A DNA stretch of 43,171 nt, taken from Acidobacteriota bacterium. Lineage in GTDB: Bacteria > Acidobacteriota > Terriglobia > Terriglobales > Acidobacteriaceae. Below the pieces are notes generated by a model. It was not told the DNA's origin, did not search any database, and saw only the letters and a list, made by a program, of their open reading frames with translations. This document shows positions 13,839-37,037 of the stretch, in pieces. Each line of letters begins with the position of its first letter. The first letter of the stretch is position 1. The position numbers and the translations under genes are program-made. The DNA lies in contig JAKBHH010000022.1 of assembly GCA_021836865.1 (NCBI GenBank), forward strand, positions 1 through 43,171, given 5' to 3'.

Positions 13839-15632
13839 GTGAACGCAAAACAGGGCATAACCCGAAGAGAGTTTGTCATCGGCGGGGCCACAATGGCACT
13901 CGGCTCACACGTTGGGCTTGTGGCGGATACCCCCGGTTCCAGAGCTCTCAACGAGTTCGACTACGATCAGGTGCGTCTGACAGGTGGAGCGTTCAAGCGA
14001 CATTATGACCGCATTCACGCCAGTTATCTTGCACTGGATACCGACCGACTGTTAAAGGTCTATCGCCAGCGTGCGGGGCTGGCTGCGCCCGGCGCCGACA
14101 TGGGCGGGTGGTACGACGCGAACGGTTTTGTGCCGGGACACTCTCTCGGCCAATACATATCCGGCCTTGCTCGCATCGGCAACACAACCGGAGACCCAGG
14201 TTGCCATACTAAGGTCGCGGAACTGGTGGAGGGATTCGCTGCCACCATGGGGCCGGACGACCGCATCTTTGCCGGGCCAAATGCAGAAAAAGTATGGCCA
14301 TGCTACATCCTCGACAAGCATCTCGCGGGACTGATGGATGCCGCGATGCTCAGCAGTGTTGCGTCCGCGCGCGAACTGTTACCGCGCGTCTACCGTGGAG
14401 CTCTTCCCTATATTCCCGATCAGGGGCGCGATCGTGTCGGCAAGAAGGATCCACCCTACGATGAGACCTATGTTCTGCCGGAAAGCCTGTTCGATGCATT
14501 CGCAATGACCCATGACAACGCAATGCGTGAGCGAGCAATCCGTTACCTTCTCGATCGGGAATTCTTCGATCCGCTTGCCCGAGGGCAGGATGTGCTTCCC
14601 GGCCGCCATGCATACAGCCATGGCATCGCCCTAAGCTCGGCGGGCAAGGCACACCGCGTCCTGCGCAATGAGAAGTACCTGCAAGCGATGCGGGTGGCAT
14701 GGAATCTGCTGACTCAGACGCAGCAGTATGCAACTGGAGGCTGGGGTCCGAACGAGACGTTCATCGAGCCGCACAAGGGACAGCTTTACGCAAGCCTCCA
14801 AAGCACCCCGGACCACTTTGAAACGCCCTGCGGCAGTTATGCTGCAGCCAAGCTGGCGCGCTATTTGCTCTGCGCAACCGGGGATGCACACTACGGTGAC
14901 GGACTGGAACGAGTCCTCTACAACACGTTGTTGGCCGCAAAGGAGCCGGACAACGACGGGGACTATCCCTATTACTCCACCTATAGCCCACGCGCACGCA
15001 AAGTCTATTACTCGCAGAAGTGGCCATGCTGTTCCGGCACACTGGTGCAAGGCGTCGCCGACTATGTAAAGCACATCTACTTTCATGCTCCGGGCGAACT
15101 GCGTGTGAACCTGTACGCTCCGTCAACCGTGCAATGGCAGCATGGGAAGACGCAGGTCCAACTCGCTCAACAAACGCGCTATCCCTTGGAGGAGTCTGTC
15201 ATCCTTCACGTTGAAACAAGTGAGCCGACGGCCTTCACACTCGGTCTCAGGATTCCCCGCTGGCTGAATCAACATGCAACCGTGCGCGTAAACGGTGCAA
15301 GGGCCTATCCGCAGCAGAAACAGGGATGGGCGATGGTCCGCAAGGTATGGAAGAGCGGAGACACTGTTCAGTTGGACCTTCCGCAGCGCCTGTACACAGA
15401 GGCAATCGACGACCTTCATCCGGAAACTGTCGCAGTATTGCGCGGCCCACTGGTCTATGTCGAGCTCAATCCGCGTTCGCTAGGCCTGCGCCTTGTGCCG
15501 CTCGATCGCTTGAAGAGCCTTCCCGGTGCATCAGGTATCTATCACGCCGAAGACGCGGAAGGAGATCGCGTCTTCGCCCCGCTCTACCTTGTTGGTCAAG
15601 AAAGTTACACAACGTACTTTCAAAAAAGTTAA
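13839..15632 (+). CDS. GH127-type beta-L-arabinofuranosidase family protein (DUF1680), Tat-exported
   Basis: A 597-residue secreted enzyme from a GTG start with a purine-rich GAAGGGCGG stretch upstream. The N-terminus has a Tat signal (ITRREFVIGG, then a hydrophobic stretch to about residue 30). The rest is the DUF1680 (alpha/alpha)6 barrel plus C-terminal beta domains. The metal/thiol site is recognisable: Glu328 and Cys331 in ETPCGSYA, then Cys397-Cys398 in WPCCSGT. In the characterised GH127 enzyme the Glu and first Cys are separated by one residue (E-x-C) and Cys is the nucleophile; here they are two apart, marking a subgroup. The family releases L-arabinose from plant cell-wall side chains, which suits the neighbouring rhamnosidases and fucosidase. 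Exact specificity is inferred. Confidence 0.85.
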   Translation: MNAKQGITRREFVIGGATMALGSHVGLVADTPGSRALNEFDYDQVRLTGGAFKRHYDRIHASYLALDTDRLLKVYRQRAGLAAPGADMGGWYDANGFVPGHSLGQYISGLARIGNTTGDPGCHTKVAELVEGFAATMGPDDRIFAGPNAEKVWPCYILDKHLAGLMDAAMLSSVASARELLPRVYRGALPYIPDQGRDRVGKKDPPYDETYVLPESLFDAFAMTHDNAMRERAIRYLLDREFFDPLARGQDVLPGRHAYSHGIALSSAGKAHRVLRNEKYLQAMRVAWNLLTQTQQYATGGWGPNETFIEPHKGQLYASLQSTPDHFETPCGSYAAAKLARYLLCATGDAHYGDGLERVLYNTLLAAKEPDNDGDYPYYSTYSPRARKVYYSQKWPCCSGTLVQGVADYVKHIYFHAPGELRVNLYAPSTVQWQHGKTQVQLAQQTRYPLEESVILHVETSEPTAFTLGLRIPRWLNQHATVRVNGARAYPQQKQGWAMVRKVWKSGDTVQLDLPQRLYTEAIDDLHPETVAVLRGPLVYVELNPRSLGLRLVPLDRLKSLPGASGIYHAEDAEGDRVFAPLYLVGQESYTTYFQKS

Positions 15633-15645
15633 AAGGCCATTCGGG

Positions 15646-15921
15646 ATGATCATCGTGCAACTGAATGAAGGAAGTGCGATCCCTCGCAGGCTCCAGCTCA
15701 ACCCCCTTCCGATCAATGCTGGCAGCAATTCTTCTTGCTGCCGCACATCGAAAGACCGTGTGATTGTCCTCCTGATCAACCATGGATCTTATCCTCTCCG
15801 GGTTCCCCTGCCGACGCCCATGGCCGATGTGCTGCAGGACGAAGTGTCCGTCTGCGCATCCATACTCGATCCAAAGGGGATGGCCGTTCTCCTATCGCAG
15901 GCACAACAAGCGAGCCCTTAA
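15646..15921 (+). pseudogene. Remnant resembling the C-terminal domain of a GH42-type beta-galactosidase
   Basis: An open stretch of 91 codons starting 13 bp after the GH127 stop, in another frame and without a clear ribosome-binding site. Its second half (RVIVLLINHGSYPLRVPLP, then MADVLQDE and a LDPKGMAVLL ending) reads like the C-terminal beta-sandwich of GH42 beta-galactosidases, where a 'LINH' strand, a 'DLLTG' segment and a 'PxGVAVL' end are typical. No catalytic domain precedes it, so I take it as the 3' relic of a lost gene. It could still be expressed as a small orphan. The next 195 bp (15922-16116), up to the GH29 start, hold nothing I can assign. Confidence 0.45.
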
Positions 15922-16116
15922 GGTGGCGAGGAGCGATCGGCTCGCTCTCGCCCCAATCACCCACAACACGGCTTCGCTGCCTGGACCAGACCGCAGCGTG
16001 GGCCGTGACCATTTCCACGGACATAGTGCCGGGCCGCAAGGCTTGCCCATCCTGCATAGCGCACATGTTGTTCGATTGCAGTGCAAAAGACGACCTGATT
16101 CTGGTAGCGTGATGCG

Positions 16117-17751
16117 ATGAAATGTTTAGGCCTGCATAGCCAATTGCCGCGTGCCGCGGTCGCCTGCATCCTGCTTGTTCTGCCATGCCTCGCATGTTGC
16201 GGCCAGCAAGAACCCTCTTCCGTTCGCCGCGAACTCGCACGTGTTATGCAGGGGGAGCAGCAAGGCCCCTTTCGTCCGGACTGGAATTCGCTCGCTGCCT
16301 ATCGCATCCCTGCATGGTATCGCGATGCAAAGTTCGGCATTTTCATTCATTGGGGTGTCTACTCCGTTCCGGCATTCGGAAACGAATGGTACCCGCGCAA
16401 TATGTACATCCAGGGCAGCCCGGAGTACAAGCATCACATCGCTACGTATGGCCCGCAGGCAAAGTTTGGTTACAAAGACTTTATTCCGCAGTTCAAGGCA
16501 GAACACTTTGACGCGGATGCCTGGGTGGACCTTTTTGTGCGCGCCGGAGCCCGCTACATTGTTCCCGTGGCAGAACACTGCGACGGCTTTGCCATGTATG
16601 ACTCAGACATCACCGGCTGGAACGCGGTCAAGATGGGCCCTCATCGTGACGTGGTCGGCGCATTGGAGGCGGCCACCCGCCAGCGTGGTCTGCACTTCGG
16701 CGTCTCATCCCATCGAGCTGAGCACTGGTGGTGGTACTCCGGCGGTAGGAAGTTTGACTCGGACGTGAGGGATCCAGAGTTTGCCGGACTCTATGCGCCT
16801 GCACGGCCGAGGAGACTCCCCGGCGAGAACGACGAAAAGGAGCCTGATCCAAATCATCTGGAGCGCTGGCTGCCTCCCGACACAGCCTTCCTTGACGACT
16901 GGCTGGCGCGCAGCAGCGAGCTTGTTGACAAGTACCATCCGGACTTCATGTACTTCGACTGGTGGATTGGCCAGCCCGCATTTCGGCCCTACCTCAAGCA
17001 ATTTGCCGCGTACTATTACAACCATGCATCGGCGCGGGCACAAGGCGTCGTACTCACTTACAAGGACCACGATTTCCCTGAGAATGCAGCCGTCCTCGAC
17101 ATCGAGCGCGGCAAACTGGATGCCCTGCGTCTATTGCCGTGGCAAACCGACACTTCCGTCAGCATCCATTCCTGGGGTTATGTGAAAGGGGATCAATATC
17201 GCGATGCCAAATCGTTGATTGATGAACTCGTCGATGTCGTCAGCAAGAACGGAAACCTGCTGCTGAATGTGGGTCCGGAGGCCGATGGAACAATCCCCGC
17301 ACAGGCCAGGACCATTCTGCTCGATATGGGGCGCTGGCTCACAACAAATGGCGAGGCCATTTACGATTCAAGGCCATGGCTGCTCTATGGCGAAGGCCCC
17401 ACAGTTGTCACAAGCAGCGCGCTGAACACGGATCTGCAGGAGTTCACACCCGAAGACATCCGCTTCACAACCAGCAAAGGCGCTCTCTACGCCATCGCCC
17501 TCGGTTGGCCAACCCACGGAGAGCTGCGCGTGCAGTCGCTGTGGCGCGGCACGCCCTATCTACCCGGACCGGTATGTTCCGTGCAACTGCTCGGGCAGAA
17601 AGGCATGCTCACCGCCGTGCAGCGCGACGACGGTTTGCACATCCTGCTGCCCAGCAGCGCACCGGATGAGCCGGCATTTGTCTTTCGCATTTTGGCGGCC
17701 GCGCATTCCGGCGGCCGATGCGGAGGCGCGCTCGTCGCGGCAGCGCGGTAA
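16117..17751 (+). CDS. GH29 alpha-L-fucosidase, secreted
   Basis: A 544-residue protein with a signal peptide (hydrophobic residues about 12-28, ending near CCGQQ). The GH29 domain covers about residues 50-420: FGIFIHWGVYSVPAFGNEWY at the start of the barrel, AGARYIVPVAEHCDGFAMYDS, and FGVSSHRAEHWWW. Asp281 in FMYFDWWIG is the expected catalytic nucleophile, and LLLNVGPEADGTIP is a strong family signature. A C-terminal beta domain follows. The enzyme removes terminal alpha-L-fucose from glycans outside the cytoplasm. No good ribosome-binding site is visible before the ATG. Fucose occurs on pectin and xyloglucan side chains, consistent with the rhamnosidases and arabinofuranosidase here. The gene is convergent with the rhamnonate operon, separated by about 350 bp that contain a glycosidase relic. 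Confidence 0.95.
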   Translation: MKCLGLHSQLPRAAVACILLVLPCLACCGQQEPSSVRRELARVMQGEQQGPFRPDWNSLAAYRIPAWYRDAKFGIFIHWGVYSVPAFGNEWYPRNMYIQGSPEYKHHIATYGPQAKFGYKDFIPQFKAEHFDADAWVDLFVRAGARYIVPVAEHCDGFAMYDSDITGWNAVKMGPHRDVVGALEAATRQRGLHFGVSSHRAEHWWWYSGGRKFDSDVRDPEFAGLYAPARPRRLPGENDEKEPDPNHLERWLPPDTAFLDDWLARSSELVDKYHPDFMYFDWWIGQPAFRPYLKQFAAYYYNHASARAQGVVLTYKDHDFPENAAVLDIERGKLDALRLLPWQTDTSVSIHSWGYVKGDQYRDAKSLIDELVDVVSKNGNLLLNVGPEADGTIPAQARTILLDMGRWLTTNGEAIYDSRPWLLYGEGPTVVTSSALNTDLQEFTPEDIRFTTSKGALYAIALGWPTHGELRVQSLWRGTPYLPGPVCSVQLLGQKGMLTAVQRDDGLHILLPSSAPDEPAFVFRILAAAHSGGRCGGALVAAAR

Positions 17752-18099: not shown

Positions 18100-19080
18100 C
18101 TACCCCGACGAATTCTGCAATTGCGCCTGGCTGGGCGTACGCGCGCGCCAATGATAAACAGCGATCGAATTCTTCCAGAAATACTTCTGCTGTGCAGCCA
18201 GGCTCCTTGTGGCGATGTAGCGCCGTGCGACACCGAATGTCTCGTCAAACGTGGCGAGCGAATCACTATTCGGCCAGTCGCTGCCGAAAAAGATGCGGTC
18301 CTCTCCGAAAAGGTCCCAGAGCCGGTCGAGCGCCGCCTTGTAGAACCCGGAATCAAGCGAGACATGTCCCGCAACACGTCGCACAATCTCTGATGCTTTT
18401 ACATAGACATTTTTTCGTTGGGCAAGTTGCCGCAGATTTGCTTCGTAATCATCCTGGGCGCGCGCATCGGTCGGTGCATCGGCGTGCGGCAGGTGATCAA
18501 TTACGATGCGTAGATCTGGAACGTTATCCGATACCCGGACAACGGCTGCGATCAAGTCAGGATCAGGATTCGCTGTCTCAAGCACCAGGCCCGCGTCAGA
18601 GAGTAACTTGAGACCGGCCCGGAACTCCTGCTTATGCACCGCTGCTCCCAGGTCACGGCTCCACAGATTGCCGTAGCGTATGCCAAGGAAGAGGGAGCTG
18701 CGATGCAGTCGGTCCAGTGTCGCACCAAAGTCCGCGTTGTCCGGCGCCAGATCGCCGATGAATCCGAGCATGATGGTATTCCGCTCCACCACATCCTGCA
18801 GCCAGAAATTGTCTACCATCCATGGGCTGCACTCCACCGCAATGGCGCCGACCACGCCGTGAGGCCTGGCAAGCGGGAGATAGCGCGCAGGTAGCGCTGG
18901 CTGATACAGAACAGTGTCGGTCTTCTCCGGCCATGGAATGCCACCGGGGCGGGTTGGATCGAAGAGGTGGATGTGCGCGTCGATGACCGGCATGGCCGAG
19001 TCGAGCGCTTGAAGCAGGGGGGCGGTGGCAGCGCCCGCTGCAAGTGAGATTGAAGATTTCAAAAGGTCTCGTCTTTGCAC
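18100..19080 (-). CDS. COG3618 amidohydrolase, candidate L-rhamnono/L-fucono-lactonase, exported
   Basis: 326 residues. An N-terminal signal with Arg-Arg (MQRRDLLKSSISLAAGAAT) suggests Tat export. The amidohydrolase domain follows: PVIDAHIHLFDP (metal ligands His36 and His38), a central IRYGNLW segment, VIDHLPHAD, NVYVKASEI, and FFGSDWPNSD with the catalytic-type Asp. The short COG3618 group includes L-fuconolactonase and L-rhamnonolactonase, and the next gene upstream on the strand is rhmD, whose substrate is L-rhamnonate. Opening L-rhamnono-lactone to rhamnonate is therefore the best guess. The predicted export is odd for a sugar-acid pathway normally drawn in the cytoplasm. Start and signal are consistent; the substrate is inferred from context. 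It is last of four genes (GH106, MFS, rhmD, lactonase), 83 bp after rhmD. Confidence 0.85.
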   Translation of the reverse strand: MQRRDLLKSSISLAAGAATAPLLQALDSAMPVIDAHIHLFDPTRPGGIPWPEKTDTVLYQPALPARYLPLARPHGVVGAIAVECSPWMVDNFWLQDVVERNTIMLGFIGDLAPDNADFGATLDRLHRSSLFLGIRYGNLWSRDLGAAVHKQEFRAGLKLLSDAGLVLETANPDPDLIAAVVRVSDNVPDLRIVIDHLPHADAPTDARAQDDYEANLRQLAQRKNVYVKASEIVRRVAGHVSLDSGFYKAALDRLWDLFGEDRIFFGSDWPNSDSLATFDETFGVARRYIATRSLAAQQKYFWKNSIAVYHWRARTPSQAQLQNSSG

Positions 19081-19163
19081 TCGGACTCCTCTGGATATGC
19101 GCGTTTGAGTTATGCCCTTGGATAGGATGGTGCCTGGCCTCTGGCTCGAACCGGAGACGGTCT

Positions 19164-20345
19164 CTACGGATGAGGGTAGGGTCGATGCAGCTTACATTCA
19201 GGATTCAGGCGGACACCGAATCCTGGCGCATCCGGTACCTTCATGCGTCCGTTCACCGGCACCGGTTCATTCAGCAGCAGCGGAGCAAACATCGGTATCA
19301 CCCTGTCGGCCTGCGGCGCCATCATCAGGAACTCTGAAAAGGGGCTGTTATGCCGCGTGAGAACAAAATGATAACTGTAAACGCTTGACCCATGCGGAAC
19401 CACCAGCACGCCTCGGCTATCGGCGAGATCCGCAATCTTTATGAGTTCTGTGATGCCGCCGCACCAGCCCACGTCGGGCTGCAGAATATCCGCGCACCCC
19501 ATCTCCAAAAGCAGCCGGAATCCCCAGCGCGTCGCCTCGTGTTCTCCAGTTGTGACGAGCATGCCGCGGGGCGCATTGCGCTTGAGCTCGGCATAACCCC
19601 AGTAGTCATCGGGCGGCAGAGCCTCCTCGATCCACCTCAGGGAGTATTGCGAGGCTTCCCGCGCAAGTCGTATCGCGTAGTCCAGATCCAAACTCATCCA
19701 GCAGTCATACATCAGCCAGAAATCATTGCCGGTACGCGATCGCATATCGGCAAGCAGAGCGAGGTTTTTCCGCATCCCCTCTTCGCCTTCTGCCGGGGAG
19801 TGGCGCAATGGCAGCTTTCCGCCGATGAACCCCATCTGCTTGGCCAGATCGGGTCGCGATCCTGTCGCATAGAAGACGAGCTCCTGCTGAACGGCTCCGC
19901 CCAGAAGTTGATACACCGGCTCTTGCCGCAGCTTGCCTAGAAGATCCCATAGAGCAAGATCAACGCAGCTGATCGCATTCAACACAAGGCCCTTGCGGCC
20001 ATAAAACAGCGTGGAAAGATACATCTGATCCCATATCCGCTCGATCTCTCCAACGTGCGCACCCTCCAGGAATCGCGCCAGGTGGGACTCTACAATCCAC
20101 GCCGCAGGTTCACCCCCAGTAGTCACGGCAAAGCCCACAACGCCGTTCTCCGCCTCGATTTCAACGACCAATGTGCCCAGTACGTTCAGCCCGAAGGACT
20201 GGCGGCTCTGCCGGTACTCGGGATATTTCGCCATGGGCGTTGCGATGTGATCGTCGATCCAATGGCCCGGTCTCTGATCGTGGTAGTCGCCTCCGCCGCC
20301 CTTGAATACGAAGGCACGAACTTGACGGATGATAGGGTCGGCCAT
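19164..20345 (-). CDS. rhmD: L-rhamnonate dehydratase
   Basis: A 393-residue enolase-superfamily enzyme that removes water from L-rhamnonate to give 2-keto-3-deoxy-L-rhamnonate in the cytoplasm. The N-terminal capping domain carries the RhmD signature [19 protein letters not shown] and [13 protein letters not shown]. In the barrel the metal ligands are Asp214 (MYDCW), Glu240 (RWIEEALPP) and Glu268 ([12 protein letters not shown]), and the catalytic dyad is Asp291 (QPDVGW) with His318 (VPHGSS). These match the characterised E. coli RhmD set with an 11-12 residue offset. The start is the ATG after GGAGAG; the frame runs on upstream, but that part overlaps the MFS gene and is non-coding. Neighbours are a RhmT-like carrier 32 bp upstream and the lactonase downstream. 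This is the firmest pathway marker in the window. Confidence 0.96.
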
Positions 20346-20377
20346 GGAGTGAATCTCTCCTTCTTCGATACGCGAGG

Positions 20378-21706
20378 TCAGTTTGGCAGCATGCGCTCCT
20401 GCGAAGGTGTACCCTCCGCTAGAAGTGCAATGAGACCGGCCGCCAACACTGTGCATCCCGCGAGTACATACAGGCCAGCGGCTGGGGAATGGAAGTGATG
20501 ATCCGCCCACACTTTGATATTGGGAGCGACAAACCCACCCAGAGCACCCAGCGCGTTGATCACTGCGATGCCTCCCGCGGCGGCTCTTCCAGACAAATAA
20601 CTGGTCGGGAACGTCCAAAACAACGGCTGCACTGCGATAAAGCCGGATGCGGCAACGCAGATTGCTGTCATCGCGACCACGCCATGTGGAGCCAGAAACA
20701 TTGTGCTCGCCCAGGCTGAGACGCCCAATATCGATGCGGCGACGATCCGATGAACATTCCAGCGATCGGTCAGTCGCGGTACCCAATAAGCTGCGACCAT
20801 GGCGCACATCCACGGGAGCGCGGAGACAATTCCGACTTCTGGCCCCATGGACTGACCCAGAATTGCCGCAACGTCCGTCGGCAGATAAAACACCACTCCG
20901 TAGACGCTCATTTGAATGAGAAAGTAGATCGCGACAAAGTGATACATCCTGCGACGTGAGAGAGCGTGAAGAAATGCCGATGGGCCATGCGATCTTCGCC
21001 GTTCATCTTCATCCTGAAGGGCCTTGTGCAGTGCTGCTTGTTCCGGTCTGGAAAGCCAGCGCGCGTTTGACGGCCGATCGGCGAGATACCAGAATGCCCA
21101 CACCCCAACTACGACTGCAAGGGATCCTTCCACCAGGAACATCCACTGCCATCCAGGGAGCCCCGCCCTTCCGTGCAGAGTCAGCAGCAAACCGGAGAGC
21201 GGTCCTCCGAAGATAAATGCCAGCGGTGCGCCAAAATAGAACTGCCCTAAGATCTGACTGCGTACGCGCGCAGGAAACCAGTAGGTGAGGTAGAGAATCA
21301 CTCCGGGAAAGAAGCCCGCCTCCGCAAAGCCCAGCGAGAGACGCAACACATAAAACGAAACAGGCCCGCGCACGAACATGGTTGCGATGGAGATGAGCCC
21401 CCATGTAACCATGATGCGGCACATCCAAATCCTTGCACCGACTCTATGCAGGATGAGGTTGCTGGGTATCTCAAACAGTGCGTAACTGAGAAAGAAGAGA
21501 CCCGCTCCCCATGCGAACGCCGACTCCGAAAGCCCCGTTGACGATTGAAACGACTGTTTGGCAAACCCAATATTGACACGATCCAGAAAAGCCACAACAT
21601 ACATCAGCAGCAGGAAGGGAACCAGCCGAAAGCGAGCACGCGCGATTGCGCGAGTCAGCACATCATCCGTCGCCGGACAGCTCGTTACTCGCGTAATTGA
21701 GGTCAT
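20378..21706 (-). CDS. MFS transporter, ACS family, RhmT-like (candidate L-rhamnonate importer)
   Basis: 442 residues with the twelve-helix MFS layout and a central cytoplasmic loop. The anion:cation symporter (ACS) signature is clear: [19 protein letters not shown] in the first helix, then [20 protein letters not shown], and [20 protein letters not shown] in helix 4-5. The family imports organic anions and sugar acids with protons. E. coli keeps a related carrier (YfaV/RhmT) beside rhmD for rhamnonate, and the same pairing is seen here, 32 bp before rhmD, so rhamnonate is the likely cargo. Substrate assignment rests on context. A 219-bp gap with a long palindrome separates it from the upstream GH106 gene, so it may have its own promoter or a processing site. 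Confidence 0.92.
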
Positions 21707-21925: not shown

Positions 21926-24900
21926 CTACTCCGTTTGGGTCCGCAAGACCTTCACAGGTCCCAGCAGGCCCGAAGGCAGCAGCGGCGAGTTTGCCCTGTA
22001 GGGCTTTACGTCTGCGGAGGTGTAGGTGGTTGCGCCTGGTTGCTGATCGCCGATTAACCGATTCACCCAGGCGTTGGTGACCTTGATGGTGATTTCATTT
22101 GCGCCCGGCTTGAGTGCGGATGTTGCGTCCACGCGGTAGGGCGTATGCCACACCTCACCCAGGCTCTTGCCATTCACTGAAACCTCCGCAAGGTTTTTCA
22201 CATCGCCCAGATCAATCCAAACGTGCGCGCCTGCGTTGAACCAGTCCTCGGGAGCCTGCACGGTCTTGCTGTACGAGGCAGTTCCGGAGAAGTACTTCAC
22301 GCCCGCGTCTGCGTTGTCGCTCCAGGAAGCAAGAGTGTCCAGCGTGATGGATGCAGGCGCTCCCCAATCCGGCGGAAAACTCAGCTGCCAGGGTCCGTCC
22401 ACTGTAGCCAAAGTCGTCTGGGTAACATTGGGCAACTGGCGTGCGGTCTCTGCGGTCTTCTCGCGGAACAGCACGAATACCGTGCCCCACGGCTCTAGAT
22501 GAAGCGGAACGGTGGTGCGGCCATCTGCCATGGTGAAGGACGCCGGCTCCGTGACACCCGTGTCCGCATGCCAAAGTTCCGGAGTCCTGCCGGTCACGCG
22601 GAAGGTCGCCTGGACAGTTTCGTCGCGATCCTTCCTGTTGTCCACAAAATAGGCATCGCCATCGTCAAGCTTGCGATGGACAAACTCCAACCGAGCATCG
22701 CTTTCCGGCTTGGTGTAGTCGAAGTCGGGTGAAACATGTATTGCGGCAAATACATCCGTCAGGCTCTGCCCCGCATACACGGTTCCCTTGCCGACTGTGT
22801 GTACGCCTGTACCATCGCCAAAGAGCGCATCGCTTAACTTGCGGAACTCCGCCTGATCGTCGGCCAGGCTCGGGTCATCATTCGGTTTCGGCCCGGCCAC
22901 CACGGCGCCGTCCTCAACCAGCTTGTCAATCGCCCGCAGCACAGGCAGAGACATATGACGACTGTACTGATCCAGGCCCAGCACGTGATAGGTCATTCCG
23001 CCTGGAGTCACGATCTGTCCGTCCTTCACGCTGAGCTCATGAATCAAGGCATCGGCGTTCACGTAATCGAAACCAAATCCGGCCGGCACATCCGGAGACT
23101 TGTCGGCGAAGATCGCAGTCAGGTTGGAGTCTTCGCCATAAAAGTAGATCAGGTCCGCGCCAAAGTGTCCTTGCTGCAGAAGAAAGCTGGTGCGGGCCAG
23201 ATAATCAACCCATGCCCCGGCTTCTTCGGCCCACGTTTCGTTACGATTGAACCATTGCCCAAACGGTCCTAGTGTCAAGCCGGGCGCAGTGCCTTTGCCC
23301 ACCAGTGGCTGGTGTGCTGACTCGTGCACAACAATGCGGTTGATGCCGTTCAGAAACTCCTGATCGGCGGTCGGCTTCAGTGTTGCCGGTGACCAGGCCC
23401 AGGGCGCGGCCGCAGCTGTCATGGACTCGGCTGCCGCAAGGTTCTGGCCGTAGATGTGGGCCACCGACGCCGACTCACGATCATCCGCGTTGTAGCCATA
23501 TTGCTCTTTGTTGACGCCGGGCGTCTGCGTCCACATCGCACTCATGGGCACTTCGTTGAACTTCTTCACTTCCATACCATCGGCGACAAAGGCGCGCCCT
23601 GACTCATGCGATTCACCGTAATGGCCCATGCCTCGCTCATGCAGCGTGGCCTCCAACTGCCCGTAGTGCTCGTCGGCGATCAGGTCTGCAATCGTCTTGC
23701 GGAAATCCCATAGGAATCGGTCGCTGGCTTCTGCGCTTCCCACCACCTGTCCGGTGAGAACCGGCATCCAGGGAACCGGATCGTAGCCGCGCCGCTTCTT
23801 GAACTGGTCGATCATGTTGTCGGTCCAGTTCTGCGAGCCGGCCTCCCAACTATCGTTGATCACATAGCGAATGCCGCGCTGGCCCATCATGTCGGCGCCA
23901 ACCGTCTCTTTGTAGCTGTCAAGGTACGTGTCAAAATAAGCCTTCACGTACCGTCGATCGAGCTTGTCTACCTCCAGGCCGGTAGCCTCCGCCGTCGCAG
24001 GGTGGTTGGTGATTCCCAACAGCGAGTACCCGAACCGCAGCACCACCCAATGGCCTGCGGGCGGAGTCCAGTCCAGTGTTCCATCAGGATGCATCTTCGA
24101 CGTAAGGTCGATAATGTCGGACTTCTTCACCGCGGAAGCCGCGTCTACCGGCGGCGTTGCGAAGCCGTAGAGGTCTGGTTCCGGCACAAACGCAGCCTTC
24201 TCCTCGAAGTGACTGACGCGCGCGCCCGTATGGAGAACCAATTCCGCAATCTGATAGCTGGTCGGTGTGGGACCGACACGGAGTCCGAACGATTTAGGAT
24301 CAAGGCCTGCAGCCCATGCGGGCGGCGGTGGAGGCGGCGTCCGCTTGAAGGTCACCCGAAAATACTTGGCGGTCACCGCAGGAAAAGAGACCGTGTGCTC
24401 GGGCGACTCACCCGACGCCAGCCTGGCAACCAGCCGGAACGTCTGGCCATCATCACTGGCCTCAAGAGATTTTTCCGGTGCGGCAATTCCGTATATCATC
24501 GCGACGATCCGGTCCGGATCTTTCGTCACGTAGGTGATCGACCGAAGCGTCGTAGGCTTGGAAAACTCGTATTGAATCCACGCACTCTGCCCCGCCGCTG
24601 GAATCGGAAGATCCGTCGTCTTCTGCAGGTCGCCATCCGTGAGTATTGCCTGGTCGGGTGCGCCGCCGCTCGCAGTGATCTTCGGGTGCAGGTCGGTAAT
24701 GGACATGTCGTCTTTGGGTCTGCGATAAGCAACTACGACAGAGTCGGCGTAAAACTGCGGAGCCGCCTTCGCTCCCGGAGGCGCGCCCAGCGCATCGCGG
24801 ATACCGATGTTCTGAAATGCCCCGGTGTTCGACGGCGGATGCGCGAGCGTCCCCTTGAACGGCTTTCCGCCTTCCACGACCGTCTCGCTCCACACATATT

Positions 24901-25321
24901 TCTTCATGCCCTGCGACGGGGGCACCCATGGTCCACCGGACTCGCTCCACCCCGGTGAACCCGCAATCGCCTCTTCCATGTTCAACTGGTCGGCGAGCGT
25001 GGTGGCATACTTGAAAGCATCCTTCCACGCGGGGGTCATGTAGGCAAGTCGCTGTTTCACTACCTGCGGTGTCGACAAGGCTGCATCAAAGTTCTGAAAG
25101 CCGGCAATGCCAACGCGATTCATCCACTCCAGGTCCAGCTTGATCCCTTCCTGCGAGATGTTGCCGTTCATCCAGTGCCACCACACCCGTGGGCGAGCTC
25201 CCGCAGGCGGATTTGCAAAGCCCGCCTTGAGCGGGTCCGCTCCATCCTGGGCCAGGGCTGTGCACAGACAAATCACCATGGACAATGTAGCGAGGATCAC
25301 CTTAGTTGCGGAATTTCTCAT
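21926..25321 (-). CDS. GH106 family alpha-L-rhamnosidase, long form, secreted
   Basis: 1131 residues starting at an ATG with a strong AGGAGAAGG site and a signal peptide (hydrophobic about 8-24, ending LAQDG). The GH106 pattern is visible: ARPRVWWHWMNGNISQEGIK with LDLEWMNRVGIAGFQNFD at the barrel start, AGSPGWSESGGPWVPP, and a middle part with HYGESHESGRAFVADGMEVK and NRIVVHESAHQPL. A beta domain is inserted at about residues 200-370, and the C-terminus is a lectin-like beta-sandwich (WIDLGDVKNLAEVSVNGKSLG). GH106 enzymes cleave alpha-L-rhamnosyl linkages, for example in rhamnogalacturonan, by inversion. It heads the minus-strand group leading to MFS, rhmD and lactonase, which would use the rhamnose set free. 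The length is near the long GH106 forms. It is divergent from a second, shorter GH106. Confidence 0.93.
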   Translation of the reverse strand: MRNSATKVILATLSMVICLCTALAQDGADPLKAGFANPPAGARPRVWWHWMNGNISQEGIKLDLEWMNRVGIAGFQNFDAALSTPQVVKQRLAYMTPAWKDAFKYATTLADQLNMEEAIAGSPGWSESGGPWVPPSQGMKKYVWSETVVEGGKPFKGTLAHPPSNTGAFQNIGIRDALGAPPGAKAAPQFYADSVVVAYRRPKDDMSITDLHPKITASGGAPDQAILTDGDLQKTTDLPIPAAGQSAWIQYEFSKPTTLRSITYVTKDPDRIVAMIYGIAAPEKSLEASDDGQTFRLVARLASGESPEHTVSFPAVTAKYFRVTFKRTPPPPPPAWAAGLDPKSFGLRVGPTPTSYQIAELVLHTGARVSHFEEKAAFVPEPDLYGFATPPVDAASAVKKSDIIDLTSKMHPDGTLDWTPPAGHWVVLRFGYSLLGITNHPATAEATGLEVDKLDRRYVKAYFDTYLDSYKETVGADMMGQRGIRYVINDSWEAGSQNWTDNMIDQFKKRRGYDPVPWMPVLTGQVVGSAEASDRFLWDFRKTIADLIADEHYGQLEATLHERGMGHYGESHESGRAFVADGMEVKKFNEVPMSAMWTQTPGVNKEQYGYNADDRESASVAHIYGQNLAAAESMTAAAAPWAWSPATLKPTADQEFLNGINRIVVHESAHQPLVGKGTAPGLTLGPFGQWFNRNETWAEEAGAWVDYLARTSFLLQQGHFGADLIYFYGEDSNLTAIFADKSPDVPAGFGFDYVNADALIHELSVKDGQIVTPGGMTYHVLGLDQYSRHMSLPVLRAIDKLVEDGAVVAGPKPNDDPSLADDQAEFRKLSDALFGDGTGVHTVGKGTVYAGQSLTDVFAAIHVSPDFDYTKPESDARLEFVHRKLDDGDAYFVDNRKDRDETVQATFRVTGRTPELWHADTGVTEPASFTMADGRTTVPLHLEPWGTVFVLFREKTAETARQLPNVTQTTLATVDGPWQLSFPPDWGAPASITLDTLASWSDNADAGVKYFSGTASYSKTVQAPEDWFNAGAHVWIDLGDVKNLAEVSVNGKSLGEVWHTPYRVDATSALKPGANEITIKVTNAWVNRLIGDQQPGATTYTSADVKPYRANSPLLPSGLLGPVKVLRTQTE

Positions 25322-25607: not shown

Positions 25608-28442
25608 ATGTCACAGATGCAGTTCCCCTCCGTGCAACGATCTGCCATGCCGTTGCCTTGGCACCGCCTGATCCTGTTTTTGCTTTGCGCGCTCGCTTCC
25701 GCGGGCTCCGCCACTGGGCAGGCTAATGTCACGATCGCAGAGCTGCATCGCAACTTTGCTGCGCCGCCGGACTCAAGCCGGATCATGATGCGCTGGTGGT
25801 GGTTTGGCCCTGCAGCTACCCGTGCAGAAACTACTCGCGAGCTGGAGCAGATGAAAGCCGCCGGCATTGGTGGAGTCGAAATCGCCAACCTCTATGCACA
25901 GGCGCTCGACGATCCATCCACGGGCTTTGTGAATACGCCTTTCCTCTCGCAGCAACATCTGGATGCGCTGCGGTTCGCGGTCAGCGAGGCGCGGCGATTG
26001 GGCTTGCGCGTGGATATCACGCTCGGCAGTGGATGGCCCTTCGGCGGTCCACACATTCCCGTTACCCAGGCGGCAGGCAAACTGCGCGTTGAATTGAAAA
26101 TCGTGCCGGCGGGAGCCACCTCCGCCGCGGCTCCGGCCGTTGAATCGGGCGAGGAACCTATCTCGGCGTTTCTGATACCTGCTTCCGCTTCCGCCGATGA
26201 AATTGCACATGCCGCACCGCTGGCCCCTGCGGCCGCAGGCAGATATCTCTTCCCCGCTGCTCTGCAATCGCGACAACTGATCTGTTTCATCTCAAGCCGG
26301 ACCGGCATGATGGTCAAGCGGCCTTCCGTCGGGGCAGCGGGGTTTGTACTTGATCCCTACGACCGCGCAGCAATCGAGAATCATCTGCACGCTGTGGGCG
26401 ATCGACTTCTCTCCGCTTTCGGCGATCAACCGCCCTATGCGGTCTTCAGTGACAGCCTTGAGGTCTATGCCGCCGACTGGAGCCCTCGACTCCTGGACGA
26501 ATTCCAACGCCGCCGCGGCTACGATCTTCGGCCTCATCTGCTTGCGCTGGTGATGGACGCGGGCCCTGACACCGCAGCCATTCGCCATGACTGGGGCCAG
26601 ACACTCACTGAATTGGCAAATGAACACTTCCTCGCGCCCATGCGGGACTGGGCCCAGGCTCATCACACCCTGCTACGTTCGCAGACATACGGCTACCCGC
26701 CGGTTACGCTGTCGAGCAACCAGCTCGTCGATCTCCCTGAAGGCGAAGGGAAAGCGACTTTCATGATGTGGCGCGAATTCTCTGACACGCGCTGGGCAGC
26801 CTCCGCGGGCCACCTCTTTCATCGCCCCGTCATTTCATCAGAGACATGGACATGGCTTCACTCCCCTGCGTTTCGCGCCACGCCGCTGGACATGAAAGCG
26901 GAAGCTGATCTGCATTTTCTGCAGGGCATCAACCAGCTGGTCGGCCACGGCTGGCCCTACTCGCCGCCCTCTGTTCCAGAGCCGGGCTGGCGCATGTATG
27001 CTGCCGCGGCGCTCGATGCGCATAACCCCTGGTTCTTCGCCATGCCGGATCTTACAAAGTATCTGCAGCGGGTAAGCTTTGCCCTGCGGCAGGGTGAGCC
27101 GGCCAACGACGTGGCGCTCCTGCTGCCCAACGATGATGTGTGGGCGTCGTTCAAGGCTGGCATGCAGAAAAGATCCACGCCCACCTCTCCGGCAGGGTTC
27201 GATGAGAGCGGTTCCAATGTCAGCATGGACGAGTCGATGGGGAAGTTTCTGGGCGACCGAGTGGTGGCCCAGGTTCTCGATGCCGGATTCAACCTTGACT
27301 TTATTGACGCCGACGCAATCGACCATGTGGGTATTCCCTATCGCATACTCATTCTTCCCGGCGTGGACCGCCTGCCGCTCGCAACCTATCGGAAGATTCT
27401 CGCCTTCGCGCAACACGGCGGCATTGTCATCGCCACGCGGCGCTTGCCAACCACCGCGCCGGGGCTCCCGCATTGCAAACAGGAATCAGCGCAGATCCAG
27501 GAGCTTTCGCGGATACTTTTTCAAGGCGGCCTCACGGGTGAGCATTTTCTGGAAGACGAGAACCAATTGGCTGGGGAACTCGACAAGGATGCCGCGCCGG
27601 ACCTGAAATTGTTCCCGCCCGTTCCGCAAATCGGATTCATCCATCGAAAGCTCCCCGGAGGCGACCTCTACTTCGTGGCGAACACATCGAATGAGGCCCA
27701 GCACACGGAAGCACACTTTCGCAATACAGCCGCCCATGCGGAAACCTGGGATGCATTCTCAGGCACTATTGCAGGCCTTCCTGATCCCGGCGCAATCGAT
27801 CTCAATCTAGAGCCTTACGGATCGCGTCTGATCTACTTCGCCGGGGATGCAATGACCGCGAGTCCTGAGCCAGTTCGCCGCGAGACGATTGTGCAGGATC
27901 TGTCGCGACAGTGGCGCATGACCCTGGGCGAGGATGGCTCTCCCGTGGATTTGCCACACCTCACTTCCTGGACTCAAAACGCAAAGACCCAGTTCTTCTC
28001 CGGCCACGCGACTTACACCAGGACCTTCCAATGGCAAGCCGAGCAGAGCACAAAGGGCGCGTCCATCCTGCTCGATCTTGGAACGGCGACACCCGAGCCG
28101 TTTCCCGCGAACTCGGGCCGGCCCAATATGCGGGCTTATCTCGATCCGCCCGTGCATGAGGCAGCTGAGGTGTATCTGAATGGCAAGCAGGTAGGGGTCA
28201 TTTGGCGCCCGCCGTACCGTCTGGAAGTCACACCGTATCTCCAGCCCGGCGTGAACCATTTGCGCATTGTCGTCGGCAACTCCGCCGTCAATTCCCTGGC
28301 AGGTCAGCCGCAGCCGGAATACCGCCTCCTCAGAGACCGCTACGGATTGCTCTTCGTGCCCCAGGACATGGAAGACCTCAAGCCGGTCCCATCCGGACTC
28401 CTTGGCCCCGTCACGCTCATCGAATCCACCTCCACGCACTAG
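25608..28442 (+). CDS. GH106-like glycoside hydrolase (alpha-L-rhamnosidase family), short form, secreted
   Basis: 944 residues from an ATG with GGAGGT 9 bp upstream; a second ATG 13 codons on begins the signal-peptide core (LILFLLCALASAGSATG). The N-terminal barrel part reads MMRWWWFGPAATRAETTREL with GIGGVEIANLY and ITLGSGWPFGGPH, the pattern of the other GH106 branch. Downstream are FSDSLEVYAADWSP, PVISSETWTWLHSPAFRATP and INQLVGHGWPYSPP. The C-terminus is a beta-sandwich (YLNGKQVGVIWRPPYRLEV). It shares the domain plan with its divergent neighbour but lacks the long beta insertion and is only distantly similar, so the two probably cut different rhamnosyl linkages. Secreted; the leaving sugar is rhamnose by family inference. 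The TonB receptor gene follows after about 250 bp. Confidence 0.88.
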   Translation: MSQMQFPSVQRSAMPLPWHRLILFLLCALASAGSATGQANVTIAELHRNFAAPPDSSRIMMRWWWFGPAATRAETTRELEQMKAAGIGGVEIANLYAQALDDPSTGFVNTPFLSQQHLDALRFAVSEARRLGLRVDITLGSGWPFGGPHIPVTQAAGKLRVELKIVPAGATSAAAPAVESGEEPISAFLIPASASADEIAHAAPLAPAAAGRYLFPAALQSRQLICFISSRTGMMVKRPSVGAAGFVLDPYDRAAIENHLHAVGDRLLSAFGDQPPYAVFSDSLEVYAADWSPRLLDEFQRRRGYDLRPHLLALVMDAGPDTAAIRHDWGQTLTELANEHFLAPMRDWAQAHHTLLRSQTYGYPPVTLSSNQLVDLPEGEGKATFMMWREFSDTRWAASAGHLFHRPVISSETWTWLHSPAFRATPLDMKAEADLHFLQGINQLVGHGWPYSPPSVPEPGWRMYAAAALDAHNPWFFAMPDLTKYLQRVSFALRQGEPANDVALLLPNDDVWASFKAGMQKRSTPTSPAGFDESGSNVSMDESMGKFLGDRVVAQVLDAGFNLDFIDADAIDHVGIPYRILILPGVDRLPLATYRKILAFAQHGGIVIATRRLPTTAPGLPHCKQESAQIQELSRILFQGGLTGEHFLEDENQLAGELDKDAAPDLKLFPPVPQIGFIHRKLPGGDLYFVANTSNEAQHTEAHFRNTAAHAETWDAFSGTIAGLPDPGAIDLNLEPYGSRLIYFAGDAMTASPEPVRRETIVQDLSRQWRMTLGEDGSPVDLPHLTSWTQNAKTQFFSGHATYTRTFQWQAEQSTKGASILLDLGTATPEPFPANSGRPNMRAYLDPPVHEAAEVYLNGKQVGVIWRPPYRLEVTPYLQPGVNHLRIVVGNSAVNSLAGQPQPEYRLLRDRYGLLFVPQDMEDLKPVPSGLLGPVTLIESTSTH

Positions 28443-28497: not shown

Positions 28498-28558
28498 GGA
28501 AAATTTCAAATGGGAATAAAATTTCCTCTTGACACTCGCTATCTTGCGTGCGTAATGT
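28498..28558 (+). promoter_or_regulatory. Candidate promoter with upstream inverted repeat for the TonB receptor gene
   Basis: TTGACA at 28529-28534 is a perfect -35 hexamer. TAATGT (28553-28558), 18 bp further, is a modest -10 match. Directly upstream, 28498-28526 has arms GGAAAATTT and AAATTTCC that could bind a dimeric regulator. The receptor ATG lies about 130 bp downstream behind AAAGGAGG. The element sits in the 247-bp gap after GH106. Spacing and the -35 are good, the -10 is weak. Confidence 0.45.
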
Positions 28559-28689
28559 TTGGCGACATTGGAACAACTACGGCTTGGACAACTGCAAGTG
28601 TGTCTCCCCCTATTCAGAGCTCACGGTCAGGAAACAGTTGCCAACCGGCTCAAAAAAGTAAAACCTCGGACTCTCAAAGGAGGCCACCG

Positions 28690-31600
28690 ATGCGCAAACT
28701 TCGTCTCGGTTTTGCACTGACCGTTCTGCTGGCCGCAGCTGGCAGCGCGTTTGGACAAGCGGGAGCGACAGGAACCATTCTGGGGACAGTGACGGACAGC
28801 ACCGGCGCCGTTCTCCCGAACGTAACCGTCACGGTCACCAACACAGCAACCAACGTGCCCTTTCACACCACCACCAGTTCCTCTGGCGACTACCTTGCCC
28901 CGTCCTTGATTTCAGGAAGCTACTCTGTCTCTGCCACGGCCAAGGGCTTTGAGAAGTCTGTCACCAGCGGTGTTACGCTGAGCGTTGACCAGAAAGTCCG
29001 CGTGAATCTCACGTTGAAACCGGGCGCTGTCACGGAGACGATGAACGTGACGGCCCAATCGGTCGCCCTGGATACCGACAGTGCCGCGCTCTCCCAACTG
29101 GTCAGCCAGCAGCAGGTCGAGCAGCTCCCCTTGAACGGCCGAAACTTCATGCAGTTGATCCTGCTGGGAGCGGGCGCTGTCACCGTAGGCGGCGAGCAGG
29201 GCACGATGCGCCAGGGAGAAGGCAACGCCGTGAGTATTAATGGCGGCCGCCCGGAGGGCAACAACTACACGCTGGATGGCCTGGTCAATACCGATCAGGC
29301 ACTGGTCACTCCCGCCGTGATTCTGTCCCAGGATGCGATTCAGGAATTCAAGCTGGAGAGCGGCACGTATTCGGCCGAATACGGCTTCAGCGCCAGCCAG
29401 ATCAACATTGTCAGCAAGGGCGGGACCAACAAACTTCACGGTTCATTCTTTGAGTTCAATCGCAACGATGCGTACGATGCCAAGCCTTTTCCATCAGCAA
29501 CCGATTTCCTGGCCGGGGTTCCTACTGCGAATCCGATCCTGCGCCAGAACCAGTTCGGGTTTGTGATGGATGGGCCCGTCTACCTCCCAAAGATATACAA
29601 CGGGCACAACAGAACCTTCTGGATGGCAAACTACGAGGGATGGCGCATCGACAACGGCGGCAGAGCCTATGACACGCTGCCGAACCCCGCAACTCTGACC
29701 GGAAACTTTGCGGCTGAAACCTATCCTGCGATCAACGGCCTTCCAGGCGGCACACTTCCGGCCTACGGAACCGCTGCCTGCACAACCCTGCTCAGCCTGA
29801 ACCACAACTGTATGCCGGTTGACCCTACAACTGGTCAGCCATTTCCAAATAACGCGATCCCGTCGGCAGAAATTACAAACCGGCTCGCGCAGGTCGCGAT
29901 CAAGTACGGCTACTTCGCCACACCGACCGTACCGAACCAGCAGGAAGGCGTCACTAACTTTATCCAAAACGTGGGCCAGCCGCTGACCACCAACCAGCAG
30001 ACCTATCGCGTAGACCAGACTCTCGGGAAGTTAGGTTCCGTCTTCGGCCGCTTCACCTACTCCACTTATCAGAACAGCAGCCTTTCCACGGCATCACTCG
30101 TCTACGGAGTCGAGAGCCAGTTCGAGACGCAAAAGAACTGGGCAATCTCGCACACCATCAGCCTGGGCCAATCAAACGTCAACAACTTCCGCTTTGGTTA
30201 TCTGGACGCGCAGGCGCCTCAAGGCGCTCCTGCACCCCCGGCTGCGGCAATCTCGGCGCTTGCTGAAACCGGCGTCTTTACGCACTTCGGGCCATTGCAG
30301 CAGACGTGGCCTGATCTCGGGTTTGGGTCCCAGTACTCGAGCACGGGCGGCCCGGTCAACTCTTACACAGGTTCCGATAACCCGATGTGGGAGTTTGCCG
30401 ATTCCTTTACGTCCGTTCGTGGACGCCATACCCTTGGATTCGGCGTCGACTACCGTCACTGGCACCTGATCCGCAACTTGGATGACGACTTCTATGGTGA
30501 CTGGGGCTTCAATGCAAATACGGTGTTGACGAACAGCGCCAATGGTTCCTGCACCACGCCCAGCGGCTTGTGCGGCACGGGCAACTCGGTGGCCGACATG
30601 CTGCTCGGCTATTACAACAACGTAGGTGGATTTGTGCCCGGCCCGTTGAGCCCCACAACCCAGGCGGGCAACCCGCAAAATCACGTATTCGGATACTTCG
30701 CTCCGTATGCGGAGGACGATTGGAAGGCTACCCAGAAGCTGACCCTCAACATCGGGCTGCGCTGGGACTATCGTCCAGCCGCCTATGAAGCGCAGAATCA
30801 TTTCTTCTGGCTTGACACAACGAATGCTCAGGGCGGCCTCTGCTATGCCGACCCGCAATTGACCACAGACGGAGTGGCCCCCGGCGTGGGTGTAAACGGC
30901 GGCCCAATCCTTCGCTACTGCGGCTCTGTCCCCCGTCCCGGGCCGAAAACCCCGTTCGCTCCGCGCTTTGGCCTGGCTTACCGGCTCGACAACAAGACCG
31001 TCCTGCGTGGTGGGTACGGAATCTTCTTCGACTCCTACGAGGGCCGTGAAATCGACGACTCCGCGGATATCTATCCCTATAGCATCCGCAACAGTCTGAA
31101 TCCAACCCAGAACACCACTTTGCCCAAGTTCGGCAACCAACTCTTCCCAAGCTATAACTCCCTTGGGCCGTTCCCTGAGTCCACACTTTCGTTCATCGCG
31201 GTCATCGAATCGCAGAACCCGCTTGACCCCTATGTTCAATCGTGGACGGGTTCAGTAGAGCGTGAGCTCGCAAACGGCACCACCATGGAAGTGAACTACA
31301 TCGGAACCCATGCGGTTCATCTCCTTGACCGCCGCAACATCGCGCAGCCCATCTCCATTTCTGCAACGGACCTGCCCTTCTGCCAGGCGAATCCAAACGA
31401 CGCAACGCACAATTGCCCAACGTCGTCCCGGTTGCCCTATCCCAACTTCAACGGCTTCTACATCAACAGTGACTTCCACGGCTACTCGCACTACAACGCG
31501 ATGAACGTGAAGCTTGACCATCGCGCCGGCAACCTTGCCCTGACCACCATCTACACCTGGGCCAATAGCAAAGACGACAAGTCGGCTGCTGCGGGCGTGG

Positions 31601-32286: not shown

Positions 32287-32323
32287 CTCCGCCATGCCAT
32301 TCGGCCATGGCGGAGTTTTCTTT
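32287..32323 (+). terminator. Rho-independent terminator after the TonB receptor gene
   Basis: Arms CTCCGCCATG and CATGGCGGAG form a perfect 10-bp stem with a 9-nt loop, followed by TTTTCTTT. It starts 25 bp after the receptor stop and ends about 20 bp before the TPR gene start, so the TPR gene would depend on readthrough or on a promoter within this short interval. Confidence 0.85.
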
Positions 32324-32343
32324 CAGTGCGATACATTCTCTCT

Positions 32344-33546: not shown

Positions 33547-33555
33547 GCGAATGGT

Positions 33556-34986: not shown

Positions 34987-35014
34987 CGTCGCTCCTCATC
35001 GATCCGTCCCGGTC

Positions 35015-35365
35015 TCAGGGCAGATAGAATACCTCTTCCATCATGGGGAAGAGCTCGCCCGGACGCAAGGCCTCATTCGGTGCAAAGAACGGAGCCATCG
35101 CCTGCTGCCAGCGAAGATTCACAGGATCGTTATCTATCCGGCTCCAGGTAGCATCAAAGTCCTCCGCCCGCAGCGCAAGCACGAGCAGATCGTCGCGGCG
35201 ATAAATTGAGTATTCAGAGATACCCGCACTTTTCAGCAGCGCAAGCATCTCCGGCCACACCGCGCGATGGGCTTCTTCATACGCCTGAGCCATTCCCGGT
35301 TTCAGCCGCAGCACGAAGGCGTAGCGCTTCAACGGCGCAGAGCCGGTGATTGCCTGCGTGCTCAC
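35015..35365 (-). CDS. rhaM: L-rhamnose mutarotase
   Basis: A 116-residue cytoplasmic enzyme that interconverts alpha and beta anomers of L-rhamnose. It matches the E. coli RhaM pattern through its length: RYAFVLRLKPGMAQAYEEAH, AVWPEMLALLKSAGISEYSIY (catalytic-type His33 before the AVWPE block), the WxxxxND/QRW region, and the ending MMEEVFYLP. The start is a GTG overlapping the last codon of the GH39-like gene (GTGA), so the two are translationally coupled. The isomerase follows 28 bp downstream. A mutarotase here implies that free L-rhamnose reaches the cytoplasm, complementing the rhamnonate branch in the other half of the island. Confidence 0.95.
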   Translation of the reverse strand: MSTQAITGSAPLKRYAFVLRLKPGMAQAYEEAHRAVWPEMLALLKSAGISEYSIYRRDDLLVLALRAEDFDATWSRIDNDPVNLRWQQAMAPFFAPNEALRPGELFPMMEEVFYLP

Positions 35366-36861: not shown

Positions 36862-36938
36862 CGCACTTCTCCCTCTTGTTTGCCGCGGCGTTCCACGCGG
36901 ATCAAGGACTCGCTGAACGCAAAAGAACCTGCGGGCAA

Positions 36939-36968
36939 GGTATACCACTCTGCGAGTTCCATTTGCAA
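36939..36968 (-). promoter_or_regulatory. Candidate promoter of the GH39-rhaM-isomerase operon
   Basis: On the minus strand, TTGCAA (36963-36968) and TATACC (complement of 36939-36944) are separated by 18 bp, in an AT-rich stretch about 80 bp before the GH39-like ATG. Both hexamers match the housekeeping consensus at four of six positions. It would let this operon be read independently of GH78. Confidence 0.35.
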
Positions 36969-37007
36969 TATGTTCTGTATTGATATTTTGCTGGCGCTCG
37001 GACGGCG

Positions 37008-37037
37008 GCATTCCGCTCCCCGGAATGCGTGCTCTTT
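37008..37037 (+). repeat. Hairpin repeat, copy 2
   Basis: GCATTCCG and CGGAATGC form an 8-bp stem with a 5-nt loop, followed by GTGCTCTTT. The 30 bases align with 8526-8556 with one gap and three mismatches, including matches outside the stem, so the two are copies of one element. It lies 25 bp after the GH78 stop on the minus strand, but the minus-strand reading has no T-run, so it is a poor terminator for GH78. Confidence 0.6.

Follow-up and report, generated by a model that had tools for sequence, protein, structure and literature searches.

The described systems closest to the gene group analysed here, a row of genes for a major facilitator superfamily (MFS) carrier, the L-rhamnonate dehydratase RhmD and an amidohydrolase with a twin-arginine (Tat) type signal, come from other bacteria. 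The group lies on a 43,171-nucleotide contig of an Acidobacteriaceae genome (JAKBHH010000022.1), and this whole contig is hereafter called the window. The LRA1-LRA6 pathway of Sphingomonas, Azotobacter and Herbaspirillum resembles it in having an RhmD-type dehydratase, a homologue of the L-2-keto-3-deoxyrhamnonate (KDR) 4-dehydrogenase and an amidohydrolase-2 lactonase, but here no match to LRA1 reaches E<=1e-45, LRA6 is represented by just distant FAH homologues, and the lactonase, predicted to be exported, is only remotely similar to the signal-less lactonases of three clusters compared. In the rhmD-rhmT(yfaV)-rhmA(yfaU) block of Escherichia coli, as here, RhmD adjoins an ACS carrier and the block contains no dehydrogenase; however, the E. 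coli block includes a KDR aldolase and lacks a lactonase, whereas the present locus adds a lactonase with an export signal and KDR is probably oxidised. As for the amidohydrolase itself, its best Foldseek match is an L-fucono-1,5-lactonase of the cog3618 type, whose bacterial copies in the clusters compared carry no signal.

Periplasmic oxidation combined with import of the sugar acid is known for glucose in Pseudomonas. For other sugars, the consulted parts of PMC5812351 and PMC12076931 describe periplasmic conversion to the acid followed by import, as in Advenella mimigardefordensis; that system differs from ours in its sugars and in using a TRAP transporter instead of an MFS carrier, and no oxidase is linked to the genes studied here. 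A sequence-only reading of the window had proposed such a flow for L-rhamnose. We find the genes, their order, the conservation of the signal, the identity of RhmD and the recurrence of the group in relatives to be in line with a branch in which a rhamnonic acid lactone would be opened outside the cytoplasm and the acid imported and dehydrated, and we regard the chances of this core as evenly balanced.

Results

The genome to which the window belongs comprises 192 contigs and 3.98 Mb, at 96% completeness. Read in the direction of transcription, the minus strand of the window carries genes for a GH106 alpha-L-rhamnosidase, the carrier, RhmD and the amidohydrolase (Table 1), separated by 219, 32 and 83 bp. 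The open reading frame (ORF) listed at 19164-20813 is too long for RhmD, and the gene most likely occupies 19164-20345, with an ATG preceded by AAGGAG. Its product scored 741.9 bits against the NCBIfam L-rhamnonate dehydratase model NF011968 (cut-off 393), matched PDB entry 2oz3 at 731 bits and was 77.7% identical to the RhmD of Caulobacter. Residues D214, E240, E268 and H318, which we take to be the metal ligands and the general-acid His of the enolase superfamily, are invariant with E. coli RhmD. Signal classes were assigned throughout by motif and by eye; by eye, RhmD has no export signal and therefore should act in the cytoplasm, as the sequence-only reading had it.

That reading also placed an ACS-family carrier directly before RhmD. 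The protein is clearly an MFS member (143.4 bits against Pfam MFS_1, cut-off 33.4) and, although it stays under the TIGR00893 sub-family cut-off (260 versus 395), it shares 46-47% identity with E. coli YfaV/RhmT and 56% with a Burkholderia carrier that adjoins rhmD. The same neighbourhood recurs in six of the eight relatives having RhmD (short loci L004-L011). Its kinship to RhmT and its linkage to rhmD suggest that the carrier is an RhmT-like importer of L-rhamnonate.

The third gene, the lactonase candidate, starts with GTG, is served by a good ribosome-binding site (CCAGAGGAGTCCGAGTG) and encodes the N-terminus MQRRDLLKSSISLAAGAATAPLLQALDSAMPVIDAHIH. The Pfam domain Amidohydro_2 (103.8 bits, cut-off 26.4) begins at residue 33. 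In the AlphaFold model (mean predicted local distance difference test, pLDDT, 91.7) the value is under 50 for most of residues 1-27, and the barrel's first strand starts at residue 32, as would be expected of a removable signal. Homologues numbered 5592 at E<=0.001; among the matches listed, an RR pair preceded the metal motif in 98 of 120, and many of the other 22 start inside the signal, as if their starts had been called too late. We then compared the best 80 of 250 confirmed lactonase loci from GTDB genomes, several of them short and some overlapping the set of relatives' genomes (same contigs, e.g. L073 = G027). Ahead of the barrel, RR was present in 80/80 and the motif RR.[FLMIVA][LIMVFA] in 79/80; the same motif occurred in 130 of 4654 internal stretches of 50 amino acids (2.8%) and within the first 60 residues of 81 of 652 neighbouring ORFs. 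Besides the window's own copy, 15 of 17 lactonase copies of the relatives carried it. Since the motif is kept in 79/80 loci and reaches just 2.8% in internal stretches, the N-terminal signal is, judged from these counts, a trait of the family and not a misread start. With its twin-arginine motif, apolar stretch, conservation in relatives and a TatC encoded in the same genome, the protein has the sequence features of a Tat substrate, and we infer that it is exported from the cytoplasm. The Tat-like signal seen in the sequence-only reading is thus borne out.

The competing view, that translation begins at Met30, the N-terminal extension is spurious and the lactonase cytoplasmic, can draw on the Met present at that position in the window copy and on signal-less copies in two relatives, but the near-universal motif, the good ribosome-binding site at the GTG and the lack of a visible one ahead of Met30 make it very improbable, and we rejected it. 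As a separate observation, locus L045 (9639-10505) holds a signal-less copy of the family in a rhaI-rhaB-rhaEW-like cluster together with GH106; a cytoplasmic form with a link to rhamnose thus exists in the family as well.

By Foldseek, the solved fold nearest to the lactonase candidate was 4dlf (TM 0.73/0.82, 22% identity), which we take to be an L-fucono-1,5-lactonase. It was followed by 4do7 (cog3618, like 4dlf), 6uvz and 2ffi, a set that includes pyrone-dicarboxylate lactonases. The HxH, DH and GSDWP motifs align with those of 4dlf, as in a cog3618-type fold. From this fold and from its neighbours, the amidohydrolase probably works as a lactonase, with a rhamnonic acid lactone as the putative substrate.

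Linkage was followed in 79 genomes, including the window's own, with RhmD taken at E<=1e-100 and the lactonase at E<=1e-40. RhmD was found in nine and the lactonase in 17; the latter occurred in 8/9 genomes with RhmD versus 9/70 of the others (Fisher p 7e-6, uncorrected for kinship). Carrier, RhmD and lactonase stood together in four of 78 relatives (G012, G014, G032 and G042), with differing gene orders; in G020 a 42% identical lactonase adjoins RhmD, in G018 and G044 these two genes are widely separated, and G029 has RhmD and no lactonase. Within the 80 family loci, the genes near the lactonase were the carrier (18 loci), a GH106 of the window's type (15), RhmD of at least 78% identity (10), an isomerase-like gene (6) and a remoter enolase-superfamily protein (3). 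All three genes were together in nine of these loci, three of which are contigs of G012, G014 and G042. The gene caller was crude, and some lactonase ORFs that it missed (e.g. in L031 and L033) were placed by homology search. The claim that the three form one gene group at this place is upheld. Acidipila rosea (L100) has, 36 bp after the lactonase, another kind of enolase-superfamily dehydratase (219 bits against the RhmD model, cut-off 393) and next a short-chain dehydrogenase/reductase (SDR) 81% identical to that of the window. The strongest argument that the predicted exported enzyme supplies an aldonate to a dehydratase is this independent pairing with a second enzyme of that kind. Three other loci (L079, L082 and L094) have a Tat-type protein just downstream of the lactonase, which in L079 is a 3-keto-disaccharide hydrolase (PF06439).

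The step after RhmD can probably be assigned to the SDR gene of the window. Compared with SDRs of four clusters, its product was 48-60% identical to KDR-dehydrogenase candidates (60% to that of the Burkholderia cluster, L056_SDR_a) and 29-33% to LRA1 candidates, the LRA1 and LRA5 labels resting on gene order and recall, as the records state SDR alone. Its best PDB match was 6d9y (311 bits), termed putative L-KDRDH in the consulted part of PMC11199699. We conclude from these similarities that it is a probable KDR 4-dehydrogenase (LRA5); as a candidate for the missing rhamnose dehydrogenase it was discarded, since it groups with the former set. For LRA6, the 2,4-diketo-3-deoxyrhamnonate hydrolase, the genome has two distant FAH homologues (39 and 44%), one of which was scanned and gave 218 bits versus a cut-off of 500. 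A further acid-sugar block in the same genome (L182, G000:C142:28001-45455) includes an FAH protein and, by eye, an enolase-superfamily protein, SDRs, a Gfo/Idh protein and KDG-kinase-like, aldolase-like and aldehyde dehydrogenase genes.

As to the source of the lactone, no dehydrogenase gene lies within the group. Nor did LRA1, the cytoplasmic L-rhamnose 1-dehydrogenase, have a match at E<=1e-45 among the 28 candidates scored in the genome, although an unrelated enzyme may have the same activity; in nine of the 79 genomes, LRA1 matches reach just 40-43% identity. The genome also encodes RhaEW (69% identical to the L045 copy) beside RhaI-like (462 bits versus 531) and RhaB-like (314 versus 528) proteins, so that a separate phosphorylative route in the cytoplasm probably serves free rhamnose. 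Since this route and RhmD are present and LRA1 has no match, rhamnonate most simply, and probably, comes from outside; by analogy, this would be an outside supply such as E. coli is thought to have with rhmD-yfaV-yfaU.

The sequence-only reading had suggested looking for a PQQ- or flavin-type dehydrogenase elsewhere in the genome. A secreted quinoprotein was indeed found, unlinked to the group (L051, 5257-7632), with a pyrroloquinoline quinone (PQQ) domain and two inserted cytochrome c domains, under the TIGR03074 cut-off (476 versus 833). Its family occurs in 40/79 genomes, with close relatives in many genomes of the genus, and in 9/9 genomes with RhmD versus 31/70 others (p 0.002, suggestive only). 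We retain it as a mere candidate for a rhamnose oxidase, the family being general. The soluble glucose dehydrogenase PF07995 had no match in the genome. Tat-type N-termini were present on at least three of 11 aldo-keto reductases and at least two of nine Gfo/Idh proteins, both lower bounds because the N-termini of aldo-keto reductases L152, L153, L154, L157 and L161 and of Gfo/Idh protein L166 were unread. In other acidobacteria the lactonase is adjoined by a Tat-type aldo-keto reductase (L102, L104, L132) or a Tat-type Gfo/Idh protein (L126, L134, L141), sets that include near relatives of each other.

A separate observation concerns two acidobacterial metagenome-assembled genomes (L132, 7426-10984; L105, 4267-7898). 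Both carry an RhmD-like enolase-superfamily protein with a Tat-type signal (41% identical, catalytic positions kept) together with a Tat-type aldo-keto reductase, whose catalytic D-Y-K-H are kept by eye, and a Tat-type lactonase; in L132, 3 bp separate reductase and lactonase. All three steps, from oxidation through lactone opening to dehydration, might take place outside the cytoplasm in these two.

The group lies in a rhamnoside-degrading region of the window (Table 1). An outer-membrane barrel is likely to serve oligosaccharide uptake, and the GH127, GH29 and GH39-like set beside the rhamnosidases suggests a pectin region, possibly one for rhamnogalacturonan II, with the GH127 protein matching the aceric acid hydrolase model weakly (93 versus 950 bits). 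The isomerase-like protein lies far under known cut-offs (56 versus 622 bits); the pair that it forms with the mutarotase-like protein, often with a GH39-like gene, recurs in 6/80 loci, though the genome has a separate RhaI. A scan for promoters and terminators yielded sites no more numerous than in shuffles, and we therefore make no statement on transcription.

Table 1. Genes and signal of the rhamnonate group and neighbouring features of the window.
Feature	Position	Strand
Amidohydrolase-2 protein, Tat-type signal (predicted exported), cog3618-like, probable sugar-lactonase, 326 aa	18100-19080	-
N-terminal extension with twin-arginine signal, residues 1-29	18994-19080	-
RhmD, L-rhamnonate dehydratase, 393 aa, signal-less	19164-20345	-
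MFS carrier, ACS type, RhmT-related, 442 aa	20378-21706	-
GH106 alpha-L-rhamnosidase, export signal by eye, immediately upstream of carrier	21926-25321	-
Second GH106-like rhamnosidase	25608-28442	+
Outer-membrane barrel, carboxypeptidase-regulatory-like N-terminal domain	28510-32262	+
Arabinose/sulfoquinovose-isomerase-like and rhamnose-mutarotase-like proteins	33556-34986 and 35015-35365	-
GH78 alpha-L-rhamnosidase	37062-39848	-
SDR, probable KDR 4-dehydrogenase, LRA5 type; step after RhmD	40018-40770	-
GH127, GH29 and GH39-like genes beside rhamnosidases	32323-37011 and 13839-17751	

Discussion

We propose that the amidohydrolase, exported by the Tat route, would open the lactone of L-rhamnonic acid beyond the cytoplasmic membrane, and that the resulting L-rhamnonate would be imported by the RhmT-like carrier, dehydrated to KDR by RhmD in the cytoplasm and oxidised by the SDR towards pyruvate and lactate. 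This aldonate branch would run beside the phosphorylative RhaI-RhaB-RhaEW route for free rhamnose. The lactone itself could come from the bacterium's own exported oxidoreductases (the secreted quinoprotein, Tat-exported aldo-keto reductases or Gfo/Idh enzymes) or from other organisms.

Several observations weigh against this proposal. The lactonase candidate stays well below the curated cut-off for L-fucono-1,5-lactonase (NF052480, 90.4 versus 400 bits) and is 22-25% identical to the signal-less amidohydrolases of the rhmD clusters of Acidisoma, Caulobacter and Sphingomonas, while a signal-less cog3618 lactonase-like gene lies on another contig of the same genome (C190; 25% identical to the window protein and 28.6% to that of Sphingomonas). 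The copies devoid of the Tat motif are those of G001, inside a rhaI-rhaB-rhaEW cluster, and one of those of G078. In 53/80 loci, within the sequence covered, none of the carrier, GH106, RhmD and isomerase genes was found; in L089, L092, L095, L101 and L103 the carrier comes immediately after the lactonase and there is no RhmD; in L074, L129 and L139 the lactonase occurs with RhaT and no RhmD; and in G027 it stands after GH106 and before an isomerase block, again without RhmD. The phosphorylative route, in turn, is read from RhaI and RhaB matches under their curated cut-offs and from a RhaEW label given by similarity to L045. Settings of this kind, with family members near isomerases or RhaT or away from any rhamnose gene, and the low similarity to known lactonases would also fit an exported amidohydrolase that uses another lactone or ester from rhamnoside or pectin breakdown, its adjacency to RhmD being incidental. 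We consider this unlikely, because the linkage is repeated with the carrier and with two different acid-sugar dehydratases, and because cog3618 and pyrone-dicarboxylate lactonases are among the solved structures closest in fold.

Under the proposed aldonate branch, the lactone may be made by the cell or merely collected, and we find the two sources about equally likely. Scavenging only, in which lactone and rhamnonate made by other microbes or fungi are opened, imported and degraded without any outside oxidation by the cell, would resemble the E. coli rhm operon with an exported lactonase added. It agrees with the lack of a dehydrogenase gene in the group, and likewise in the E. coli rhmD-yfaV-yfaU block, and with the phosphorylative route for free rhamnose in this genome. 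It agrees as well with the better growth of a marine isolate with rhamnono-1,4-lactone and rhamnonate described in the consulted part of PMC10444878. On its own it is possible, if somewhat short of probable, as the quinoprotein relatives accompany RhmD in every genome that has it and exported oxidoreductases adjoin the lactonase in a few relatives. The exported oxidoreductases beside the lactonase in those relatives also speak for oxidation of rhamnose to the lactone in the periplasm before uptake, as the sequence-only reading had envisaged, by the quinoprotein or by a Tat-exported NADP enzyme, and so do the secreted PQQ/cytochrome c protein and the Tat-type N-termini on reductases in this genome and the lack of an LRA1 match. 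However, all of these genes lie apart from the group here, the quinoprotein family is general and misses its sub-family model, PF07995 is without a match, and G027, which has lactonase and GH106, has no such quinoprotein at E<=1e-80; we therefore place own oxidation at the same level, conceivable and somewhat doubtful. Of the extracytoplasmic flow suggested at the outset, the lactonase with its export signal, the RhmT-like carrier, RhmD and the lack of an LRA1 match at E<=1e-45 are in agreement, and the step lacking in the group is the dehydrogenase.

An extracytoplasmic oxidation route for L-rhamnose was not among the literature matches listed, which comprised titles and abstract openings and left subscription journals mostly uncovered. 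The rhamnose version of periplasmic oxidation and acid import would therefore be new, as the sequence-only reading held, but its principle is already established for other sugars, as noted above from the consulted parts of the sources. Tentatively, and with doubt, we extend the scheme to the Acidobacteriaceae at large: part of their rhamnose would be oxidised outside the cytoplasmic membrane by an exported oxidoreductase (quinoprotein or Tat-exported NADP enzyme), the lactone opened by a Tat-exported lactonase and rhamnonate imported for RhmD, in parallel with a phosphorylative route, and in L132 and L105 even the dehydratase would be exported.

Pectin and many plant glycosides contain rhamnose as a main sugar, and soils are rich in acidobacteria. 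The gene group, in which no lactone-making enzyme was found, suggests extracellular handling of some of the plant rhamnose, with uptake in the form of the acid. If the branch works as proposed, exported rhamnosidases would feed an extracellular aldonate pool that can be guarded by a dedicated carrier, apart from the uptake of free rhamnose. Acidipila rosea DSM 103428 (L100) offers a simple test organism, and a large family of Tat-exported amidohydrolases, many of which are called just 'predicted metal-dependent hydrolases', would gain a testable job.

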